64,000 nucleotides of DNA from Eubacteriales bacterium (lineage in GTDB: Bacteria > Bacillota > Clostridia > Lachnospirales > Lachnospiraceae), in assembly GCA_030526715.1 (NCBI GenBank), contig JAUNCG010000005.1, positions 1 to 64,000 of the forward strand. The letters run 5' to 3'. A program made the translations under genes and the position numbers. Numbering within the stretch: the first letter of the stretch is position 1; each line of letters starts with the position of its first letter. Below the pieces are notes generated by a model. It had not been told where the DNA came from. It made no database searches and saw only the letters and a list, made by a program, of their open reading frames with translations. Shown here in pieces: positions 30,137-40,262 of the stretch.

Positions 30137-30282
30137 GATGAACATATAAATTAGTTCTAAAGATTTATTACATTTCTGGAATTCCGGCAGTCGCCATTGA
30201 TTCCGAAAAAGACAACAGAATAATTAAATGGTGCAGCGTGTCGGAAAGACTCCTGACAGGTATGCGCTTAGACAGGAGGAGT

Positions 30283-31338
30283 ATGGGAAAGAAAGACGTT
30301 ATCCAGAAGATATTCTGGGAAGATAATCGTAGATTTGCCGATTTTATCAATGTAGTAATGTTTCGGGGAGAACAGATCATCTCGGCAAAAGATATTGAAG
30401 ATTCAGATGCTTCCGAATATATGCTCTCAGAAGACAGCAGGACGAAGATGGAAGGATATCGTGACATCGTGCGTAAGGTGTCTGCTGATGCAGGTTTTGC
30501 CTTGATAGGAATCGAGGATCAGACAGAGATACATTATGCGATGCCGTTGCGGGTATTGATCTGGGACGCCATGTGCTACGATGAGCAGCTGCGCGGAATC
30601 GCGAGAATGCATGCGGAAAAGAAGGATCTGACAGGTGCAGAATATCTCTCACGTTTTGCCAAAACTGACCGTGTATTGCCGATGTATACCTTTGTACTTT
30701 ACTATGGATCAGAACCATGGGACGGCGCGAGGAATGTGACGGAGCTGATCGATGATCGTTTTTTTACCGGTGTAAGATCGGATGGAAAAATGCTTCCTCC
30801 GTTTTCTTATCCAATTCATTTGATAGAGATACAAAAATATCAGGAGACAGGATTCTTCCAATCAGATCTTCGTGAAGTATTTGAGTTTATCCAGAGAGCC
30901 AGAGACAAGAATGCATTAAAGGATTTATTGAAAACACGTACAGAAAAGTATGAACATATGTCAGTGGACGCAGTACGATTCATAGCGACCGTGACAAGGA
31001 CAAAAGAACTTGAAAGGATAATAGAGAAACCGGAAGTATCCGGGAAGAAAGGAGAGACAAATATGTGTAAGGCAATTGATGATATGATCGCGGAAGGACG
31101 AGCAGAAAGTGAGGAAAAAGCACGAAAGCTTGAGAAAAGATTAAAAGCTGTAGAAGAACAGAATCGACAGTCGGAACAGAAAGCACATCAATCAGAGGAA
31201 AAACTACAGTGGTTAGAGAAAAAGAATCAGGTTGTACTTACATTACTTGCGCAGAATCGTAATGAAGACATTGTCGCTGCATTGCAGGATGACGGTATTT
31301 GCCGGAAGCTGATCGAGGAGCTTGGAATCGGAGCATAG
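30283..31338 (+). CDS. Rpn-family (PD-(D/E)XK) nuclease / putative transposase-like protein
   Basis: 351 residues. The N-terminal two thirds resemble the PD-(D/E)XK Rpn/YhgA-type proteins that are numerous in Lachnospiraceae: KKDVIQKIFWEDNRRFADFIN, IGIEDQTEIHYAMPLRVL (acidic residue before the strand and QxE-type region), then VLPMYTFVLYYGSEPWDG. The C-terminal 110 residues form a long charged coiled coil (EGRAESEEKARKLEKRL) and a short helical end. Rpn proteins are DNA endonucleases that promote recombination. The start is uncertain: AGGAGG is only a few bases before the ATG at 30283, while a GTG at 30238 would add 15 residues. It sits alone among pseudogenes. Confidence 0.75.
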   Translation: MGKKDVIQKIFWEDNRRFADFINVVMFRGEQIISAKDIEDSDASEYMLSEDSRTKMEGYRDIVRKVSADAGFALIGIEDQTEIHYAMPLRVLIWDAMCYDEQLRGIARMHAEKKDLTGAEYLSRFAKTDRVLPMYTFVLYYGSEPWDGARNVTELIDDRFFTGVRSDGKMLPPFSYPIHLIEIQKYQETGFFQSDLREVFEFIQRARDKNALKDLLKTRTEKYEHMSVDAVRFIATVTRTKELERIIEKPEVSGKKGETNMCKAIDDMIAEGRAESEEKARKLEKRLKAVEEQNRQSEQKAHQSEEKLQWLEKKNQVVLTLLAQNRNEDIVAALQDDGICRKLIEELGIGA

Positions 31339-31457: not shown

Positions 31458-31486
31458 TTGACCTGTCCTGTTGAAATTGGTAAAAT
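31458..31486 (+). promoter_or_regulatory. Promoter of the riboswitch-controlled transcript
   Basis: TTGACC (31458-31463), 17 bases, TAAAAT (31481-31486). The predicted start near 31493 lies just before the riboswitch aptamer. Confidence 0.6.
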
Positions 31487-31499
31487 GATGTAGAATTAA

Positions 31500-31626
31500 A
31501 TATTGAGCAAAACAGTCGAAAGATTGTTACGCAAAGCTATAGGGCCTGTAAAATGGCAGCCAGTTGCACGAAATATATGTATTTGGAGGGTTGTCTTTGC
31601 CGTGTATGTGAGGGCGCTCTTTTTTT
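31500..31626 (+). promoter_or_regulatory. Cyclic-di-GMP-I (GEMM) riboswitch with downstream expression platform
   Basis: The aptamer (31500-31576) has all the landmarks of class I: closing stem ATATT/AATAT; GCAAAAC; a 7-bp stem AACAGTC/GATTGTT capped by a GAAA tetraloop (31518-31521); ACGCAAAGC; and the receptor helix with TATAGGGCCT and ATGGCAGCCAGTTG. After it, an imperfect stem between GGAGGG (31585 region) and AGGGCGCTCT is followed by seven T (31620-31626), a plausible but weakened terminator. The first gene below is a pseudogene; the intact hybrid kinase and the GGDEF/EAL protein lie further along the same strand. Confidence 0.85.
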
Positions 31627-31672
31627 CGATAAGAACTATTTATAAAGAGCGGTTAAAATGGGGAATTGTTCT

Positions 31673-31900
31673 ATGAGGGAAAACAAAAAAATCAGATGGT
31701 TATCGGTTAGCACTGCGGTTATACTTTTGTGTGCCGGTTTGTGAGGATGCGGAAATAAGCAGGATCCGCATGATGCTGCGAATAGAAAGGTGACGCTTCC
31801 GCTGAAGGAGTTGGTGGAGCTGACGATTGCTGCGCCGGATAGAGGCGAGTATTCGCTGGAGAATGAGCTTCCGCTCTGGAAGGAAATTGAGAAGAGGTGG
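31673..31900 (+). pseudogene. N-terminal remnant of an extracellular solute-binding lipoprotein
   Basis: From the ATG at 31673 the frame gives a lipoprotein signal peptide (IRWLSVSTAVILLCAGL), then a TGA exactly where the lipobox serine would be, then GCGNKQDP. A single change (TCA to TGA) would restore LSGC. The following KELVELTIAAPDRGEYSLEN and LPLWKEIEKR match the start of LplA/YesO-type sugar-binding proteins. After EIEKR the family sequence stops and the frame runs straight into the transmembrane start of a sensor protein, so the rest of the gene was deleted. This is the first gene below the cyclic-di-GMP riboswitch. Confidence 0.75.
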
Positions 31901-33564
31901 ATGGGTATGAAGCTGTTTCATTTCCCATATACGATGCCAGAGTACAGGAGAATGTTTCGGCAAATGTATCGTCGTCTGTTTCTTGTGTTTACCGCAGTAT
32001 TTCTTGTCGCGGCGGGCATGTATTACTCGATCCATGCGCAGAACCGCAGAAACGAAGATGCGCAGATTGCGGAAAAGGTCAATAGCTATGCAAGTGCGGC
32101 GCTTATGAAGCTGAGAGATCTGACCTATAATCTCGGTGCTTCTCAGGAGATCACGGAAATGAGGAATGCCGCGACTGGGGAATTTGATCCGACCTATTAT
32201 TATGCCGCGCAGCGAGAACTGATCTCCTACAAGGTATTAAACAGGCAGGTCAACGGCCTTGCAGTGTATATCTATGATGCGATCTACGTGGCGACCGATA
32301 AAGAGGTAGTGAGCGTGGAGGATTATCAGGAGGCTCTGGCTCCGGGCGTTGCTTTTTCACAGTACGCAAATCGATCGGTGACGCACGTTTTGTTGCCGCA
32401 AAGGATAAAGAAATGCAGCTGGACTACGCGATGCCGCTGATCAATTCTGCCGGGCATAGATATGCGACGTTGTTCATAGAATTAAAGACATCGGCGATCC
32501 GCAGGGAGATAGAAGAGTTGATTCCGAAGGAGTTTGTATATCTTCTTTTTGACGAATCCCATACGCTTATTTTGGGCAATTCGCTGACAACCGGGAAGTC
32601 TTCGTGGCCAACCTATGAGGAGACTCTTGCGGATCGGTTCTATGCGTCGGACGATGAGGATGGGATCGTCTGCTTTATAAAACAGACCGATTCCGGCTAC
32701 CGGAATCAGCGCATTCGGACAGCCATATTGCTGATCGCATTGTTCGCCCTGCTTCTTGTACTGTCGGTACCGTGTTCTCACTTTTTCTGTAAGAGAAGCT
32801 ATGAAGAACGGGAGGAGGTAAGGCATGAGCTTGAAGAACAGAAGAAGATGGTGGAAAACAGCAGAATGCAAATGGAGCTGGCACAGGCGAGGGAGAACCG
32901 GATCCGGGTAAAAAAGGATTTCCACGGAGTGAACCATTGGTATGTCTCCGGAGTTTCTAAAAAAGTTTTTTTTGCCGTTTGAACGAGAGCATATGTATTC
33001 CGATGCCAAGCATTCCGGAACCGATCTCGGAATGGCGATTACCAAGGAGCTGGCAGATCTTATGAATGCCGAAATCCGCGTCACCAGCGAGGTGGGCAGG
33101 GGAAGTAGGTTTGTCATGACGGTTCCGTTTGATCTGGCCGCTTCGGTGGGAGCGACGGAGGAGACAGGAAACGAGGATGTCTCATTGGAGGCGCACCATT
33201 TTGCTGGCGGAAGACAACAGTCTGAACCGGCAGGTGGCGGAGTATGTGCTTTGTGACGCAGGGGCAGAAGTAGTCGCCGTGGTCAACGGTCTGGAAGCGA
33301 TAAAGACATTTGCAAAAGCGCCGACAGGCACCTTTGATTTTGTGATCATGGATGTACGGATGCCGGAAATGGACGCTCTGGAAGCAAACGCGGAGGATCC
33401 GGGCATTATCCTGTGTGGATGCGAGGACAGTACCGATCATTGTGGCATCTGCGAATGCATTTGCGGATGATGTCAGAGAGTGTCTGGAAGCGGGAATGAA
33501 CGATCATGTGGCGAAGCCGATCGATATTGCAAACCTGCTTTTGGTCTTGAAAAAATATCTATAG
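31901..33564 (+). pseudogene. Broken hybrid sensor histidine kinase gene
   Basis: Read in pieces across four frame changes. Part 1 (to about 32400): YRRMFRQMYRRLFLVFTAVF transmembrane helix and an extracellular sensor region. Part 2 (about 32400-32930): rest of the sensor, second helix (AILLIALFALLLVLSV) and a coiled coil, then an abrupt loss of the phosphoacceptor histidine domain and most of the ATPase. Part 3 (about 32940-33170): GMSPEFLKKFF and the GTDLGMAITK box of the ATPase end. Parts 4 and 5 (to 33564): a receiver domain (ILLAEDNSLNRQ, IMDVRMPEMD, then IIVASANAFADD and HVAKPIDIANLL) split by another shift near 33400. It cannot be functional. It is a paralogue of the intact kinase that follows. 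Confidence 0.8.
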
Positions 33565-33572
33565 AATATCGA

Positions 33573-33611
33573 CAGTAGTACCTCTGTTTCTTCGAATGAA
33601 GGAGGATACTG
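33573..33611 (+). other. Hairpin before the intact hybrid kinase gene
   Basis: CAGTA (33573-33577) pairs with TACTG (33607-33611), with CCTC/GAGG and TTC/GAA helices inside. No T-run follows, so it is an RNA structure or a decay boundary and not a terminator. Confidence 0.35.
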
Positions 33612-33659
33612 CAGAACCGTCGGGATGATGAAAAATAATGGATAGTAGGTAAGGTAGAG

Positions 33660-35354
33660 ATGAAGGAAAAGAAAATGATCGACAGAAGTGAAAAACCGGC
33701 TTCGGAAATGCTGGGCGAATATGTGGAGCAGCTTAAGAAACAGGAGCAGGAGCTGAAAGCGGCGCTCAATTCGGCGATGGATGCCAGCAAGGCGAAGAGC
33801 AGGTTTTTATCTAATATGTCGCATGATATCCGGACACCGATGAATGCGATCGTGGGATATACGGCGATCGCATCCGCACATATTCATGAACCGGATATCG
33901 TGAAGCAGAGTCTGGGAAAAATAGCGCTGGCCAGCGAGCATTTACAGGGACTGATCAACGATATTCTGGATATGTCCCGCATTGAATCGGGAAAAGAGAC
34001 GATAAATCTGAACCGCACCTCTGTCCCGGAGATGGTAAGAGGTGTTTTACCGATGATACAGGCGCAGGTCGATCGCAAGCATTTGGAGTTGTATATCGAT
34101 ACGATAGATTTAAAGGATGAAAGAGTATATGCTGACACGCAGAAAATGCGGCAGATCCTGATCAATCTGATGAGCAATGCCGTGAAGTTCACCGGAGAGG
34201 GTGGACATATCGGAATCCGTGTGAAACAGATGAAGAGTAAAAAAGAGGGGTATGCGACCTATGTTTTCCGGGTGAAGGATGACGGAATCGGTATGAGCAG
34301 GGAGTTTCTCAAACGGATTTTTGATCCATTCGAGCAGGAGCATACGTATGAGGAATCCGGAAAGGAAGGTACCGGACTCGGTATGACGATCACAAAAAGC
34401 TTTGTGGATATTCTTGGCGGAACGATCGAAATAGAAAGTGAGCTTGGTAAGGGCAGTGAATTTATTATATCGTTGGAGCTGAAGCTTCAGGAGGACGTGC
34501 AGCCGGATGCAAGGCTGGAAGAGCTGAGAGGGTTTCGCGCGCTGGTCGTGGATGATGATTTTTCGACCTGCGACAGTATTACGAGGATGCTTTCCGATGT
34601 CGGGATGCGATCGGACTGGACGGTTTCGGCTAAGGACGCCCTGCTGAGGACTCAAAAGGCCATCAGTGATGACGATCCGTTTTTTGCCTATATCATAGAC
34701 TGGATCATGCCGGAAATGAATGGTCTGGAGTTGGTTCGCAGAATCCGGAAGTTTATAGGAAACGACATACCGATCATCATTCTGACGGCATATGCGTGGG
34801 GAGATATTGCAGAGGAAGCGAAGGAGGCAGGCGTGACAGCGCTCTGTACAAAGCCGCTGTTTGCCTCAGATCTCACAACGATTTTTCTGGATAATATCAA
34901 TATTGATGGAACAGCGCGCATGGCGAAAAGAATGATGGACAGCGTAGATCTGAGGTTTGAGGGGGAACGTGTGCTTCTGGCAGAGGACAACAGGTTGAAT
35001 CGCGAGATCGCGGAAGTGGAAATGCAGGAAATGGGGCTGGAGGTCATCTGTGCAAAGAATGGTAAAGAGGCGGTGGAGATGCTGGAAGCATCCGAAAACG
35101 GGCATTTCGATTTTGTTTTGATGGATATGAGAATGCCGGTCATGGATGGGGTCAGTGCTACGCTGAAGATCCGTCAGTCCCAACGCCGGTATCTGAAGGA
35201 AATTCCGATCATAGCGCTGACTGCGAATGCGTTTCAGGAAGACGTGAATGCCTGTCTGGAAGCAGGGATGAATGCGCATGTGGCAAAACCTTTTGATTCT
35301 GACGACCTTGCGCTGGTATTGAAAAGACAGCAGAAGAAAAAACGATGTGAGTGA
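33660..35354 (+). CDS. Soluble hybrid histidine kinase with two receiver domains
   Basis: 564 residues. A short coiled coil (15-45) leads straight into the HisKA domain with phosphoacceptor His55 (SNMSHDIRTP), then the ATPase domain (N-box INLMSNAVKFTGEG, DDGIGMSREF, GTGLGMTITK). Receiver 1 starts ALVVDDDFSTCDS, with its Asp in IIDWIMPEM. Receiver 2 starts VLLAEDNRLNRE, with its Asp in VLMDMRMPVMDG. There is no sensor or membrane domain, unusual for this class, so the input must come from a partner or was lost by truncation; the broken gene upstream has exactly the missing sensor. Start uncertain between 33660 and 33675. It is 25 bases from the GGDEF/EAL gene and probably cotranscribed. Confidence 0.88.
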   Translation: MKEKKMIDRSEKPASEMLGEYVEQLKKQEQELKAALNSAMDASKAKSRFLSNMSHDIRTPMNAIVGYTAIASAHIHEPDIVKQSLGKIALASEHLQGLINDILDMSRIESGKETINLNRTSVPEMVRGVLPMIQAQVDRKHLELYIDTIDLKDERVYADTQKMRQILINLMSNAVKFTGEGGHIGIRVKQMKSKKEGYATYVFRVKDDGIGMSREFLKRIFDPFEQEHTYEESGKEGTGLGMTITKSFVDILGGTIEIESELGKGSEFIISLELKLQEDVQPDARLEELRGFRALVVDDDFSTCDSITRMLSDVGMRSDWTVSAKDALLRTQKAISDDDPFFAYIIDWIMPEMNGLELVRRIRKFIGNDIPIIILTAYAWGDIAEEAKEAGVTALCTKPLFASDLTTIFLDNINIDGTARMAKRMMDSVDLRFEGERVLLAEDNRLNREIAEVEMQEMGLEVICAKNGKEAVEMLEASENGHFDFVLMDMRMPVMDGVSATLKIRQSQRRYLKEIPIIALTANAFQEDVNACLEAGMNAHVAKPFDSDDLALVLKRQQKKKRCE

Positions 35355-35379
35355 TTTGTGATTTCGATGAGGAATATGT

Positions 35380-38300
35380 ATGACAAAGAAAGAAAAAACG
35401 GTTTTAAATCCGCTAGATGGGCTTTACATGGATGCAATCGCAGCATCTTATGAATTCAGTATGATTTATAATCTGACAAAAAATACATTTACGATCCGAA
35501 GATATCATCACGCATTTCTAAGCGGGGAGTTTCCTTTAAGTGGGAAATACGATGAGTTTATCGATTCGGTCAGTATGCAGCTTCTGAAAAATGACAGACG
35601 GTATCAGCCATCCGTACGTTGCAGGAAGGAACAGCTCAGACGCTATCGCGCAGGTGAGAGGTATCGGGAGGATCGTTATCAGATCTATGACAGAAAAGGC
35701 AAGCTTCACTGGGTTCGGGAGCGTATCGTGTATATTGAGGATCCGGTCAGCGGGGACGTCATGGGATTATCGCTCGCGGCGGTGATTGACGAGGAAATAC
35801 AGAACGAAAGAAACAACCACAGGATTCATGATGAACTCACGGGAGTTTTCAGCAGAGCGTATTTTTATGAGCAAGCAAACAGGGTTCTGCGTCAGGCAGA
35901 AGCGGAGGGGTGTGTCACAGAATACGCGCTGATTTTTAATAACATTCAGAACTTTAAATATTATAATATAAAATATGGACGCCAGTCGGGCGATACGCTT
36001 CTTCAGCATGTGGCGAATTCGATAGAAACCGTTGGCAATGATTTTTTGCTAGCGAGGTATGGAGACGATCATTTTATCTCCATTACGCGGGATCCGGATA
36101 TGATTGAATCGATCACGACCGGGAATCGTATGTTTGAACAGGAGTTCGGAGCCTTCGGGATAAAGCTTAAAACGGGTGTCTATCAGATTACGAAAGAAGG
36201 CATGACGGCAGAAACGGCCGTGGATATGGCCAAGATCGCCTGCGATTTCGCCGGAAATTCGCAGGATGCTGTCTGGCTATATGATGAAAAGTTGGAAAAG
36301 CAGCTGGAACGCAACAGCTACATTGAGAAAAATTTTGATCGTGCATTGAAAAATGGTTATATCAAACCGTACTATCAGCCAGTGATCCGAACGAATAACG
36401 GGCAGCTCTGCGGCGTTGAGGCGCTGGCAAGATGGATCGACCCGGAGTTGGGATTGTTGTCTCCGGGAGATTTTATTCCGGTATTAGAGAAAAATCAGGA
36501 GATCACAAGACTTGATCTGTATATGCTGCGTCAGATCTGTAAGGATATTATGACCGGCGTCCGGCTTGGAGGAGAGTTCCCTGCGCCGGTTTCTTTTAAT
36601 CTGTCGAAGCTGGATTTCCTGAAGGGCTCAGTTTTTGACGAGGTGGAAGAGATCGTGCTGGAAAGCGGGGTTCCGAGGGATCTGATCCGTATTGAAATTA
36701 CGGAGTCTGCTGTCGTGACTGATCCGACGTATATGAAGCAGGTGATCTCGAAGTTTCAAAATGCGGGATATCAGATCTGGATGGATGATTTTGGCAGCGG
36801 ATTGTCATCGCTGAATCTGCTGACAGAATATCGTTTTGATGAGATTAAGCTGGATATGCTGTTTTTGCGTTCCTTTGATGAACAGGCAAAGGAATTGATC
36901 CGCTCGGTGATCCAGATGGCAAAAAGGCTCGGGATCCAGACGCTTGCCGAGGGTGTGGAGACCAGAGAGCAGTATGCATATCTCAGGGAGATCGGCTGTG
37001 AAAAGGTACAGGGCTATTATTTCAGCAAGCCGCTGTCGTTTCAGGGGCTGTTTGAATACAAAGAACGTACCGGTCTGACGATCGAGCAACGCGCCATGGC
37101 GCCGTATTATGACAAAATGGGGAAAATCGACTATATTACGGATCGCTCTCTTGCCATCGTGGAGTTTGATGCAAAAAAGATCCGCATAATATATAAGAAT
37201 TCCGAGTTTGATAAAATCTGTCGGAACATCGGGAATGGGGAGGATTTTCTGACAGAGTATATTCTAAATGCGCCGGCGTCCACACTTCGACGGAAGTTTC
37301 TGGCGCATCAGAATGCCACGTATGCCAGCATAGACTTTATACATATGGATTATTCCTACAACGGAAAGTATTTTCGCATCCGTTCTAAATGTATCGCCAG
37401 ATATAGGCAGTATGCGGTAAATCAGGTTGAGATCCAGAATATTACGATGGATGAGCAAATCAGGGATGGGAAAGAGCTGGATCATATTTTCCGTATGATG
37501 TATTCCATGTATGACAGCATCCATGTGATAGGCAGGGACGGTTCTTTCTTTGAGGTGATGAAAAATAATACGACTGGGAATCATCTGTCGGAAAACAAGG
37601 AGAGCATCAGCCGCAGAAAAGTGGCTGAGCGTTATATTTTCTGGATGGAGCACGGCGAGTTTATGGAGTTTACAGATCCGGCTACACTGAAAGAGAGATT
37701 GAAACGAATAGAACGAGGCTATGAAACACGGTATTTCAGAAGCAGGACGGAGCAGGGCGGTTATGCGTGGAAGGCGCATACGATCCAGTATATTCCGGAT
37801 AACGATATGCTGCTTTATTCCACGCGGCCAGCGTTTTTTTATCAAAACGGTCTGATTGACAGGCTCGTTCCGTCTTATATGGAAGAATATAAGCAGGGAA
37901 TGAGCGGACTGCTGTGCTCAAATCTGTTTCAATCGGAAATCGTCAGTCTGTTCTGGAAGGATAAAAATCGGAGATTTACGGGGGCAAACCGGAAGTTTCT
38001 GGAGACCTTCGGCTTCCAGTCCGAGAAGGGACTGATCGGAAAGCTGGATGAAGAGATGGGATGGCTCGTGGATGGGATCCCTTTCCGGAATGATGAGATC
38101 GATCTGCTGGAAAACGGAACGGTAGTCAGACATCGGATCGGAAAATGTATTATAAAAGGGGTACTTCATACGATACTTGTTAAAAAGGAACCGATTTTCC
38201 GGGATGGAGAGATCGTCGGATTGATGGGCTGTCTGATCGATCTGAATGAACTGACGGATGCATTTGGAAGCATTGCGCTGAACGATGTCGATCCTGTGAC

Positions 38301-40221
38301 GGGGTTGCTCTCTGCACAGGGGATGACAGGCGCGATCGCAGAATATATGGAAGGCTGGAATGGCAGAAGAGAAAACTTTGCGGCCATTCAGCTTATATTC
38401 CGTGAGTACGGCAGGGTATATCGGACCTATGGAGAGGATATCACCAGACAGATGGCCGGGGAAATAGGAAAGATTTTGGTGCGGATCTGCGGAGATCAAA
38501 GTCCGATCGCGCGTCTGTATGCCGGGAGATTTACGATCCTGAAAAAATACAGTGATAAGGATGAGATCCTCCTGCTTCAGAAAGAGCTGTCGCATGCAAT
38601 GCAGGAAGTCCGTGCCCTTGCAGGATATTCGGTCACTCTCAATCCGGCGATCAGCGCGGAGTACGCAGCAAATAGTTGGAACGAAAATGCGCTGATCTAT
38701 CTGGCAACCGGGGGAAGCGGTTCAAAGGTTACGCTTTTTGATCAACCGTGGACGGAGCAGTCTACGGCGGAAGTGGGACGGGCGACAGAGAAGGCGGTGG
38801 AGATTTCTTCGGAATTTGAGCTGAAGGATCTCTGGAACACCTACGAAAAGCTGAGTGAGACGCTTTATGCCGCAGATATGGATACCTATGAGCTGCTGTA
38901 TATGAACAAGAAGGGGAGAGAGACCGTAGGAGTTACTTCTGTGGAGGATATCCGCGGAAGACGATGCTATGAGGTGATTCAGGGAAAGTCCTCACCGTGT
39001 GAATTTTGCAGTAACCGTCAGTTGATGGACGGAAAGCACGTGGAATATGATTTCTTTAATAAAAAGTACAACATGATGGTTCATGTGTGCGATCAGAGGA
39101 TCGTGCATCAAGGGCGGAATATCCGTATCGAGCATGTCATGGAGTTGAATAAGGAAGAGAACATTCCGAAATTTGACAAGGCGGATCACGTGCGGAATGT
39201 GATTAATGAGAGTATCCGGATGGCGTTGGAGGAACAGGACGCAGACCGGGGGATCGATATACTGCTGGAATATCTGGGGGAAGTATTGCGAGCAGAACGG
39301 ACATATCTGTTTGAGCTTACACCGGATGAGAAAGCATGGACCAATACGTACGAATGGTGCGCGAAAGGCGTTATGCCGGAAAAAGACTTTCTGTCCTACG
39401 TGCCGCTTGAGGATGCGGCAGTTTGGAAGCGTGAATTTGAAAAAGGAAACTATGTCAAGATCCGGGATGTGGAGAAAATCAGGGAGAGTGACCGGATGGT
39501 ATATGATTATCTTGTTCCGCAGAACATTCATTCTCTTGTGGTAGCTCCGATATTTCAGGGAGAAAAGCTGTACGGATTTGTGGGCTTTGATAATCCGCCG
39601 AAGGAAATGATCGATATTTTGAGTCAGAAAATCCGGTCGGTAGCCCATGTACTCCAATCGATCATGGAGAGACGGCTGCTGAAAGAAAAGTTGGATGAGA
39701 TCATTTATGTGGATAGTATGACGAAGCTTGGAAACCGACATGCGGTATCACGCTACTTTGAGGAGATCAATCGGGGACAGAGCATTGGAATCGCATTTTG
39801 TGACGTCTGCGGTCTGAAGTATGTGAATGATAATCTCGGACATCTCTCGGGGGATGCGCTTTTACTTACGATCAGTGATCTGCTTAGAGAGATCTTCCCG
39901 GTAGGGGAGATATTCCGTTGGGGTGGAGATGAGATGATGGTTCTCACAAGCGGTGTGGAAAAGCAAAAGTTTTATCAGTATTGCGAGACGTTGAAAAGAC
40001 GTTCACTGGAACAGAATTCACCGGTAGCGGTCGGAGGAATATGGAGAGAGAGGGTCGATATTTCCTACAATGACCTGCTCAAAGAGGCGGATAAGAAGAT
40101 GTATTTCCATAAGGCACTGTTGTACCAGCACTATGATGTTTACAGAATACTGATGAATAATTCGCAGATCGTTCCAAAATCATCGAAAAAAAGACAAATA
40201 ATTTGTGATAATTTACAATGA
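35380..40221 (+). CDS. Very large GGDEF/EAL cyclic-di-GMP signalling protein
   Basis: 1613 residues, no membrane segment. Order: PAS-like (1-140); GGDEF 1 (148-300) with a degenerate YGDDH at 227-231; EAL phosphodiesterase (320-560) with GVEALARW (Glu347), NLSKLDF, EITESAV, DDFGSGLS, EGVETREQ and GYYFSKP, all needed for hydrolysis; PAS-like modules; GGDEF 2 (about 965-1100), degenerate (YAGRFTI); a PAS module with three cysteines (RRCYEVIQ, SPCEFCSN; about 1195-1215); a GAF domain (about 1280-1430); and GGDEF 3 with RWGGDEMMVL at 1515-1519, likely an active cyclase. So it can probably both make and break cyclic-di-GMP. It follows a hybrid kinase and lies about 4 kb below a cyclic-di-GMP riboswitch. 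Confidence 0.9.
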   Translation: MTKKEKTVLNPLDGLYMDAIAASYEFSMIYNLTKNTFTIRRYHHAFLSGEFPLSGKYDEFIDSVSMQLLKNDRRYQPSVRCRKEQLRRYRAGERYREDRYQIYDRKGKLHWVRERIVYIEDPVSGDVMGLSLAAVIDEEIQNERNNHRIHDELTGVFSRAYFYEQANRVLRQAEAEGCVTEYALIFNNIQNFKYYNIKYGRQSGDTLLQHVANSIETVGNDFLLARYGDDHFISITRDPDMIESITTGNRMFEQEFGAFGIKLKTGVYQITKEGMTAETAVDMAKIACDFAGNSQDAVWLYDEKLEKQLERNSYIEKNFDRALKNGYIKPYYQPVIRTNNGQLCGVEALARWIDPELGLLSPGDFIPVLEKNQEITRLDLYMLRQICKDIMTGVRLGGEFPAPVSFNLSKLDFLKGSVFDEVEEIVLESGVPRDLIRIEITESAVVTDPTYMKQVISKFQNAGYQIWMDDFGSGLSSLNLLTEYRFDEIKLDMLFLRSFDEQAKELIRSVIQMAKRLGIQTLAEGVETREQYAYLREIGCEKVQGYYFSKPLSFQGLFEYKERTGLTIEQRAMAPYYDKMGKIDYITDRSLAIVEFDAKKIRIIYKNSEFDKICRNIGNGEDFLTEYILNAPASTLRRKFLAHQNATYASIDFIHMDYSYNGKYFRIRSKCIARYRQYAVNQVEIQNITMDEQIRDGKELDHIFRMMYSMYDSIHVIGRDGSFFEVMKNNTTGNHLSENKESISRRKVAERYIFWMEHGEFMEFTDPATLKERLKRIERGYETRYFRSRTEQGGYAWKAHTIQYIPDNDMLLYSTRPAFFYQNGLIDRLVPSYMEEYKQGMSGLLCSNLFQSEIVSLFWKDKNRRFTGANRKFLETFGFQSEKGLIGKLDEEMGWLVDGIPFRNDEIDLLENGTVVRHRIGKCIIKGVLHTILVKKEPIFRDGEIVGLMGCLIDLNELTDAFGSIALNDVDPVTGLLSAQGMTGAIAEYMEGWNGRRENFAAIQLIFREYGRVYRTYGEDITRQMAGEIGKILVRICGDQSPIARLYAGRFTILKKYSDKDEILLLQKELSHAMQEVRALAGYSVTLNPAISAEYAANSWNENALIYLATGGSGSKVTLFDQPWTEQSTAEVGRATEKAVEISSEFELKDLWNTYEKLSETLYAADMDTYELLYMNKKGRETVGVTSVEDIRGRRCYEVIQGKSSPCEFCSNRQLMDGKHVEYDFFNKKYNMMVHVCDQRIVHQGRNIRIEHVMELNKEENIPKFDKADHVRNVINESIRMALEEQDADRGIDILLEYLGEVLRAERTYLFELTPDEKAWTNTYEWCAKGVMPEKDFLSYVPLEDAAVWKREFEKGNYVKIRDVEKIRESDRMVYDYLVPQNIHSLVVAPIFQGEKLYGFVGFDNPPKEMIDILSQKIRSVAHVLQSIMERRLLKEKLDEIIYVDSMTKLGNRHAVSRYFEEINRGQSIGIAFCDVCGLKYVNDNLGHLSGDALLLTISDLLREIFPVGEIFRWGGDEMMVLTSGVEKQKFYQYCETLKRRSLEQNSPVAVGGIWRERVDISYNDLLKEADKKMYFHKALLYQHYDVYRILMNNSQIVPKSSKKRQIICDNLQ

Positions 40222-40230
40222 ATTTTGAAG

Positions 40231-40262
40231 ACAGCAGCCTGTAAAAGGGCTGCTGTTTTATT
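40231..40262 (+). terminator. Bidirectional terminator between the GGDEF/EAL and AraC genes
   Basis: ACAGCAGCC (40231-40239) pairs with GGCTGCTGT (40248-40256), 8-base loop, then TTTTATTTTA. It lies between convergent genes. Confidence 0.75.

Follow-up and report, generated by a model that had tools for sequence, protein, structure and literature searches.

A GEMM-I riboswitch in a Lachnospiraceae genome is followed by the debris of two dead genes and then by two intact genes, which encode a hybrid histidine kinase and a giant protein of 1613 aa with GGDEF and EAL domains. We put the probability that the riboswitch works as an OFF switch on these two intact genes at roughly 0.55, with the direction of switching taken from predicted RNA structure. 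The same kind of arrangement, with fragments directly behind the riboswitch, was found in four other genera of the family. Coordinates refer to the window, which is the whole stretch of 64,000 nt that was analyzed, and the features are collected in Table 1.

Table 1. Features in and around the riboswitch leader and the genes behind it.
Feature	Position	Strand	Basis or score
Promoter-like site TTGACC-17-TAAAAT, TG before -10 (sigma-70-like, extended -10)	31458–31486	+	10/12 matches
c-di-GMP-I (GEMM-I) aptamer, 76-nt subtype	31496–31571	+	RF01051 match
A at the Vc2 G20 position (ligand-contacting base)	31506	+	Mapping from PMC6274999
Predicted antiterminators, 31555–31561 with 31588–31595 or 31560–31568 with 31578–31586	31555–31595	+	Prefix folds
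Intrinsic terminator, 14–15 pairs, one bulged U, 7-nt loop	31585–31626	+	-12.6 kcal/mol
Solute-binding lipoprotein gene remnant (signal peptide and ∼50 residues)	31673–31896	+	Translation
Membrane hybrid histidine kinase remnant	31907–33564	+	Lesions mapped
Hybrid histidine kinase HisKA-HATPase-REC-REC, 564 aa, intact	33660–35354	+	Reading frame, domains
1613-aa protein GGDEF-EAL-PAS-weak GGDEF-PAS-GAF-GGDEF, intact	35380–40221	+	Pfam
Terminator-like hairpin, 13 pairs, likely end of the transcription unit	40228–40259	+	7 nt past the giant gene's stop codon

The Riboswitch and Its Expression Platform

The preliminary description had placed a cyclic-di-GMP-I aptamer with a GAAA tetraloop at 31500–31626. 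The search with RF01051 bore this out, with a match of 53 bits (E = 1.6e-7; gathering score 35 bits) that covers the complete model (1–87) and is the sole Rfam match within the window. The P2 and P3 helices and the GAAA tetraloop are present, while a P1 helix is not evident. The aptamer keeps 17 of the 17 consensus pairs of the 76-nt subtype, including those at helix positions that are variable among its relatives. The source genome, a draft of 2.4 Mb in 133 contigs, contains two further RF01051 matches, both with higher scores (83.6 and 67.2 bits) than the one in the window. A second riboswitch of the short type (75 nt, 82% identical to that of the window) sits on contig C102 (L128, 8429–11862), flanked on one side by a hybrid kinase gene and on the other by a gene whose product is large, acidic and of surface type. 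Behind the remaining riboswitch, on contig C79 (L127, 10708–11756), a terminator can be read, after which a run of N hides the gene.

The promoter-like site ends 9 bases 5′ of the aptamer, and transcription from it would start just 5′ of the aptamer. As the number of promoter-like sites in the region does not exceed that in shuffled sequences, this position is the main argument for a promoter. A 366-aa ORF with a coiled-coil tail and only a sub-threshold match to DUF2887 lies 5′ of the riboswitch (30238–31338). It was rejected as a part of the cassette, being absent upstream of the other riboswitches surveyed.

The terminator hairpin spans 31585–31622 and its seven T residues 31620–31626. The preliminary description held good for the riboswitch and for both the decayed and the intact signaling genes, but its view of this terminator as mismatched and possibly decaying did not, given the length of the stem, the single bulge and the full run of T. 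The many G-U pairs of the stem may have been taken for mismatches.

The terminator begins 17 nt after C92 (Vc2 numbering) and does not overlap the aptamer, and ligand binding therefore does not hinder it. The predicted antiterminators do use aptamer bases, and the one formed by 31560–31568 and 31578–31586 is predicted to capture C92. Prefix folds, in which the 3′ arm of the terminator has not yet been made, favor structures in which aptamer bases pair with the terminator's 5′ arm or with 31578–31586. With a terminator clear of the aptamer and an antiterminator overlapping it, the predicted structure has the layout of an OFF-type switch. Equilibrium folding separated the free and bound states poorly and gave no clean switch by folding alone. 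In the OFF-type riboswitch Cd1 the ligand-pairing C87 becomes part of the antiterminator (PMC9262584), and the functional class I switches of Clostridium difficile acted as OFF switches (PMC6200980).

Two Dead Genes Behind the Riboswitch

A lipoprotein signal peptide and a binding-protein-like start (LCAG..GCGNK..., EYSLENELPLWKEIEKR) can be read from the ATG at 31673, and codon 24 of this frame is an in-frame TGA (31742–31744). Reading on in this frame leads into the leader sequence of the gene that follows, which means that the remainder of the binding-protein gene has been lost. A Pfam search with the remnant gave no match; its lipobox and motif suggest that it derives from a binding protein. 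The kinase remnant carries a frameshift at about 32365–32386, a deletion at about 32936 that took HisKA and the front of HATPase, and further frameshifts at about 33180–33191 and 33386 before its stop at 33562–33564. Both the binding-protein remnant and the broken kinase named earlier were confirmed. For the sensor part of the kinase remnant, one weak match only was found among 299 genomes of the family.

Taken together, the two dead genes contain six lesions of differing kinds in ∼1.9 kb, two of them large deletions, whereas the following 6.5 kb with the hybrid kinase gene and the 1613-aa gene contain none. The chance of a lesion-free last 6.5 kb is ∼1e-4 under a model of uniformly distributed lesions. 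This contrast suggests selection on the downstream genes, although these could alternatively be younger than the debris.

The Intact Kinase and the Giant GGDEF/EAL Protein

The frames of both downstream genes are clean, in agreement with the earlier call of an intact hybrid kinase and a 1613-residue GGDEF/EAL protein. No sensor domain was recognized in the 564-aa kinase. The giant protein has GGDEF, EAL, PAS, and GAF domains according to Pfam. Its first GGDEF domain is degenerate (GDDHF) and its second, in the middle of the protein, is weak (22 bits, below the cut-off); from their sequences both look inactive. Alignment to the EAL domain of MorA (4rnh/4rni) showed that the VEAL, NLS, EITES, DDFG, KLD, and AEGVE motifs are kept. 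The third, C-terminal GGDEF domain has GGDEM, LKYVND, and GHLSGD, and its substrate motif is the usual one. Judged by these motifs, the protein may both make and break c-di-GMP.

Named relatives of the giant protein are found mostly in Lachnospiraceae and other gut Clostridia, which points to a gut Lachnospiraceae-like bacterium as the probable source. The source genome itself encodes a paralog of the same length (63% identity), whose gene stands among other large genes for kinases and GGDEF/EAL proteins, and a paralog with 44% identity on another contig; no RF01051 match was found on either contig. The 63% paralog is the fifth of five large signaling genes in a row on contig C96 (L123, 1439–19282, – strand), the others encoding hybrid kinases of 1097 and 629 aa, a REC-GGDEF-EAL protein of 1284 aa and a GGDEF-EAL-GGDEF protein of 1000 aa.

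The Short Riboswitch Subtype in Related Genera

RF01051 is present in 109 of 299 sampled genomes of the same family, and about 120 aptamer loci, partly picked by score and length, were fetched from it. The subtype of the window aptamer is 73–78 nt long, with most members at 76 nt. HK, REC, GGDEF or EAL domains within 5 kb, counted as signaling context with the window excluded, were seen at 15 of 23 loci of the short type and at 19 of 92 of the longer types (nominal Fisher p = 7.5e-5). Counted by genus the figures are 12 of 20 and 17 of 62 (p = 0.014); both p-values are exploratory because the split at 78 nt was chosen after the loci had been viewed. Owing to this post hoc split, the partly selected loci and several near-identical loci among them, we regard the association of subtype and context as a lead with moderate support.

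The intact form of the unit is seen at three loci (L200, L210, and L211), where a riboswitch is followed by a binding-protein lipoprotein gene, a membrane hybrid kinase gene and further sensor kinase genes. They resemble the window in the 76-nt aptamer, the terminator and the succession of lipoprotein and hybrid kinase(s), but their first genes are intact, the binding-protein and sensor sequences are other ones, and no giant GGDEF-EAL protein occurs within the stretch read.

Debris directly behind the riboswitch was found at four loci in four genera. It consists of kinase residues 381–445 at L201 (95% identical to L210), of binding-protein residues 182–222 and kinase residues 548–572 at L208, of binding-protein residues 1–41 at L212, and of two short pieces at L213. 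Two more loci (L254 and L272) have domain matches near the riboswitch in intact frames and were excluded from this count. The debris is followed by an intact signaling gene at L201, L212, and L213, while at L208 the sensor-kinase gene that comes next is split, too. With debris and a signaling gene behind the riboswitch in four other genera, the arrangement in the window is one of a recurring kind. A literature search found no description of this operon type in Lachnospiraceae.

Two of these loci, L200 and L201, lie on one contig (genome G149, contig C52, at 119868 and 105476) as cassettes of the same subtype, ∼14 kb apart and in the same orientation. L200 keeps its first genes and L201 has the kinase fragment and the next sensor-kinase gene, which looks like duplication and loss.

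The Base at the G20 Position

The equivalent of Vc2 G20 is column 11 of the RF01051 model and is an A in the window, a change overlooked in the preliminary description. The mapping rests on the published geometry of the cGAMP riboswitch, in which A14, the base that sets selectivity, lies before C15, the first base of P2, and A41 comes after G40 (PMC6274999), since a check against a Vc2 sequence was ambiguous in its numbering. The ligand-contacting A47 (31533) and C92 (31567) are both kept. An A at the G20 position is typical of cGAMP-sensing GEMM-Ib RNAs and the ligand is therefore not certain, with c-di-GMP appearing the more likely one. Among the roughly 120 sampled aptamers of the family, the position is G in about 94 and A in 17, and A20 shows no association with downstream signaling genes (4/16 vs. 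28/88).

The other 76-nt aptamer with A at this position is that of L204 (genome G032, contig C2), where the first gene encodes a GAF domain that shares 42% identity with that of the giant protein. The 76-nt aptamer of L203 has U at the ligand-pairing C92 position (aptamer position 72) and an intact sensor-kinase gene behind it.

One Transcription Unit or Several

After the terminator of the riboswitch itself, the best terminator is the 13-pair hairpin behind the giant gene; up to 40228 on the + strand there are only weaker terminator-like sites of at most 8 pairs. No promoter-like site was found at 31640–33660, whereas such sites occur inside the giant gene; a promoter before 33660 that escaped detection is possible. 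These observations fit a single unit from about 31490 to 40260, without proving it. Polymerase would have to cross ∼2 kb without translation, a stretch in which polarity of the Rho type might end transcription.

Alternative Explanations

The two intact genes might have a promoter of their own, with transcription from the leader stopping short of them, so that the riboswitch works, or once worked, as an orphan. Two dead genes do intervene, ∼95 bp separate the remnant from the start of the intact kinase gene, and in C. difficile no downstream gene is detectable for 5 of the 12 class I riboswitches (PMC6200980). The promoter-like site, aptamer pairs and terminator, which a leader out of use should lose, are all intact here, however, no promoter-like site was found at 31640–33660, and relatives that lost genes in a like manner have retained both riboswitch and downstream gene. 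We hold the orphan reading to be possible but the less probable one. Because the succession of riboswitch, debris and intact signaling gene recurs in related genera, the riboswitch is probably still in use; the comparative loci and the position of the strongest later terminator, just past the giant gene, favor continued use over an orphan. That the dead genes are artifacts of assembly or sequencing and the operon is really intact is very improbable. A draft genome in 133 pieces leaves room for such errors, but these would have to account for lesions of several kinds, large deletions among them, next to 6.5 kb of clean sequence and for the gene debris that follows riboswitches of this kind in four other genera, and no intact copy of either remnant was found elsewhere in the genome.

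As to the ligand, the aptamer might respond to 3′,3′-cGAMP, or to both cGAMP and c-di-GMP, in the manner of the GEMM-Ib RNAs of Geobacter, which share the A at the G20 position together with A47 and C92. Variants that respond to cGAMP commonly have A20, and a comparable aptamer that carried this change bound cGAMP markedly better (PMC9481103); the presence of A20 in 17 aptamers of the family also speaks for such a response. The corresponding mutation in Cd1, G11A, kept binding and had no large effect, however (PMC9262584). The P2 closing pair of the window aptamer is G-C as in c-di-GMP types and not C-G as in the Geobacter RNA, the genes behind it are not exoelectron-transfer genes, and its platform is of the OFF type, whereas the pilM terminator is described as capturing C75. 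Nor do the legible GGDEF domains of the source genome show the Hypr signature: among its 19 GGDEF matches, all but a few of which were extracted, the legible ones have Asp (one has Asn and one is degenerate) and none of these has the Hypr Ser, the search for cGAMP synthases having covered enzymes of the GGDEF type. On balance a response to cGAMP is unlikely. Still a little less likely is the wider proposal of an A20 variant that detects cGAMP, or both dinucleotides, and thereby governs an operon of c-di-GMP turnover, and of a 76-nt riboswitch that stays in place while the sensory modules behind it are lost and replaced time and again. In that case one cyclic dinucleotide would tune another.

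Proposed Mechanism

Under continued use as an OFF switch, the ancestral unit would probably have consisted of riboswitch, binding protein, membrane hybrid kinase and more signaling genes, of which the first two genes eroded while the switch and the downstream genes stayed intact. The promoter at ∼31460 would give an RNA headed by the 76-nt-subtype GEMM-I riboswitch. As long as no ligand is bound, the aptamer's 3′ portion would pair with the 5′ arm of the terminator as antiterminator, and polymerase would continue across the untranslated debris of the lost binding-protein/kinase pair into the two intact genes, those for the hybrid kinase and for the 1613-residue GGDEF-EAL-GGDEF protein, and would terminate at ∼40260. 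With ligand bound the aptamer would be held, the terminator would form and transcription would be halted. A cyclic dinucleotide, most likely c-di-GMP, would in this way lower the expression of its own kinase and enzyme.

Comparison With Known Systems and Significance

Class I c-di-GMP riboswitches have mostly been described before motility, adhesion, and surface genes. The riboswitch of the window belongs to an ordinary family and stands in a less ordinary place. It resembles Cd1 of C. difficile (RF01051) in the aptamer fold, the GAAA tetraloop, A47 and C92, in the lack of an evident P1, which Cd1 is also described as lacking, and in having, behind the aptamer, a terminator whose antiterminator draws on bases of the aptamer. 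It differs from c-di-GMP-I riboswitches such as Cd1 in the A at the G20 position and in heading kinase and GGDEF/EAL genes. According to a recent review, c-di-GMP riboswitches are often found upstream of process genes rather than of c-di-GMP metabolic genes (review from 2024; PMC11477304). The CmrRST system of C. difficile, a signal transduction system behind a c-di-GMP-II riboswitch (PMC11477304), is a further case of signaling proteins under the control of a c-di-GMP riboswitch, but there the riboswitch is of class II and the proteins are different.

Here and in a dozen genera of the family, genes for kinases, binding proteins, and c-di-GMP enzymes stand behind the short subtype, a context that gives the messenger a direct way to feed back on its own network. 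With debris in five genera, that of the window included, it becomes testable how a riboswitch outlives the genes that it originally served, and the A20 base offers a cheap test of whether cGAMP signaling reaches gut Clostridia.
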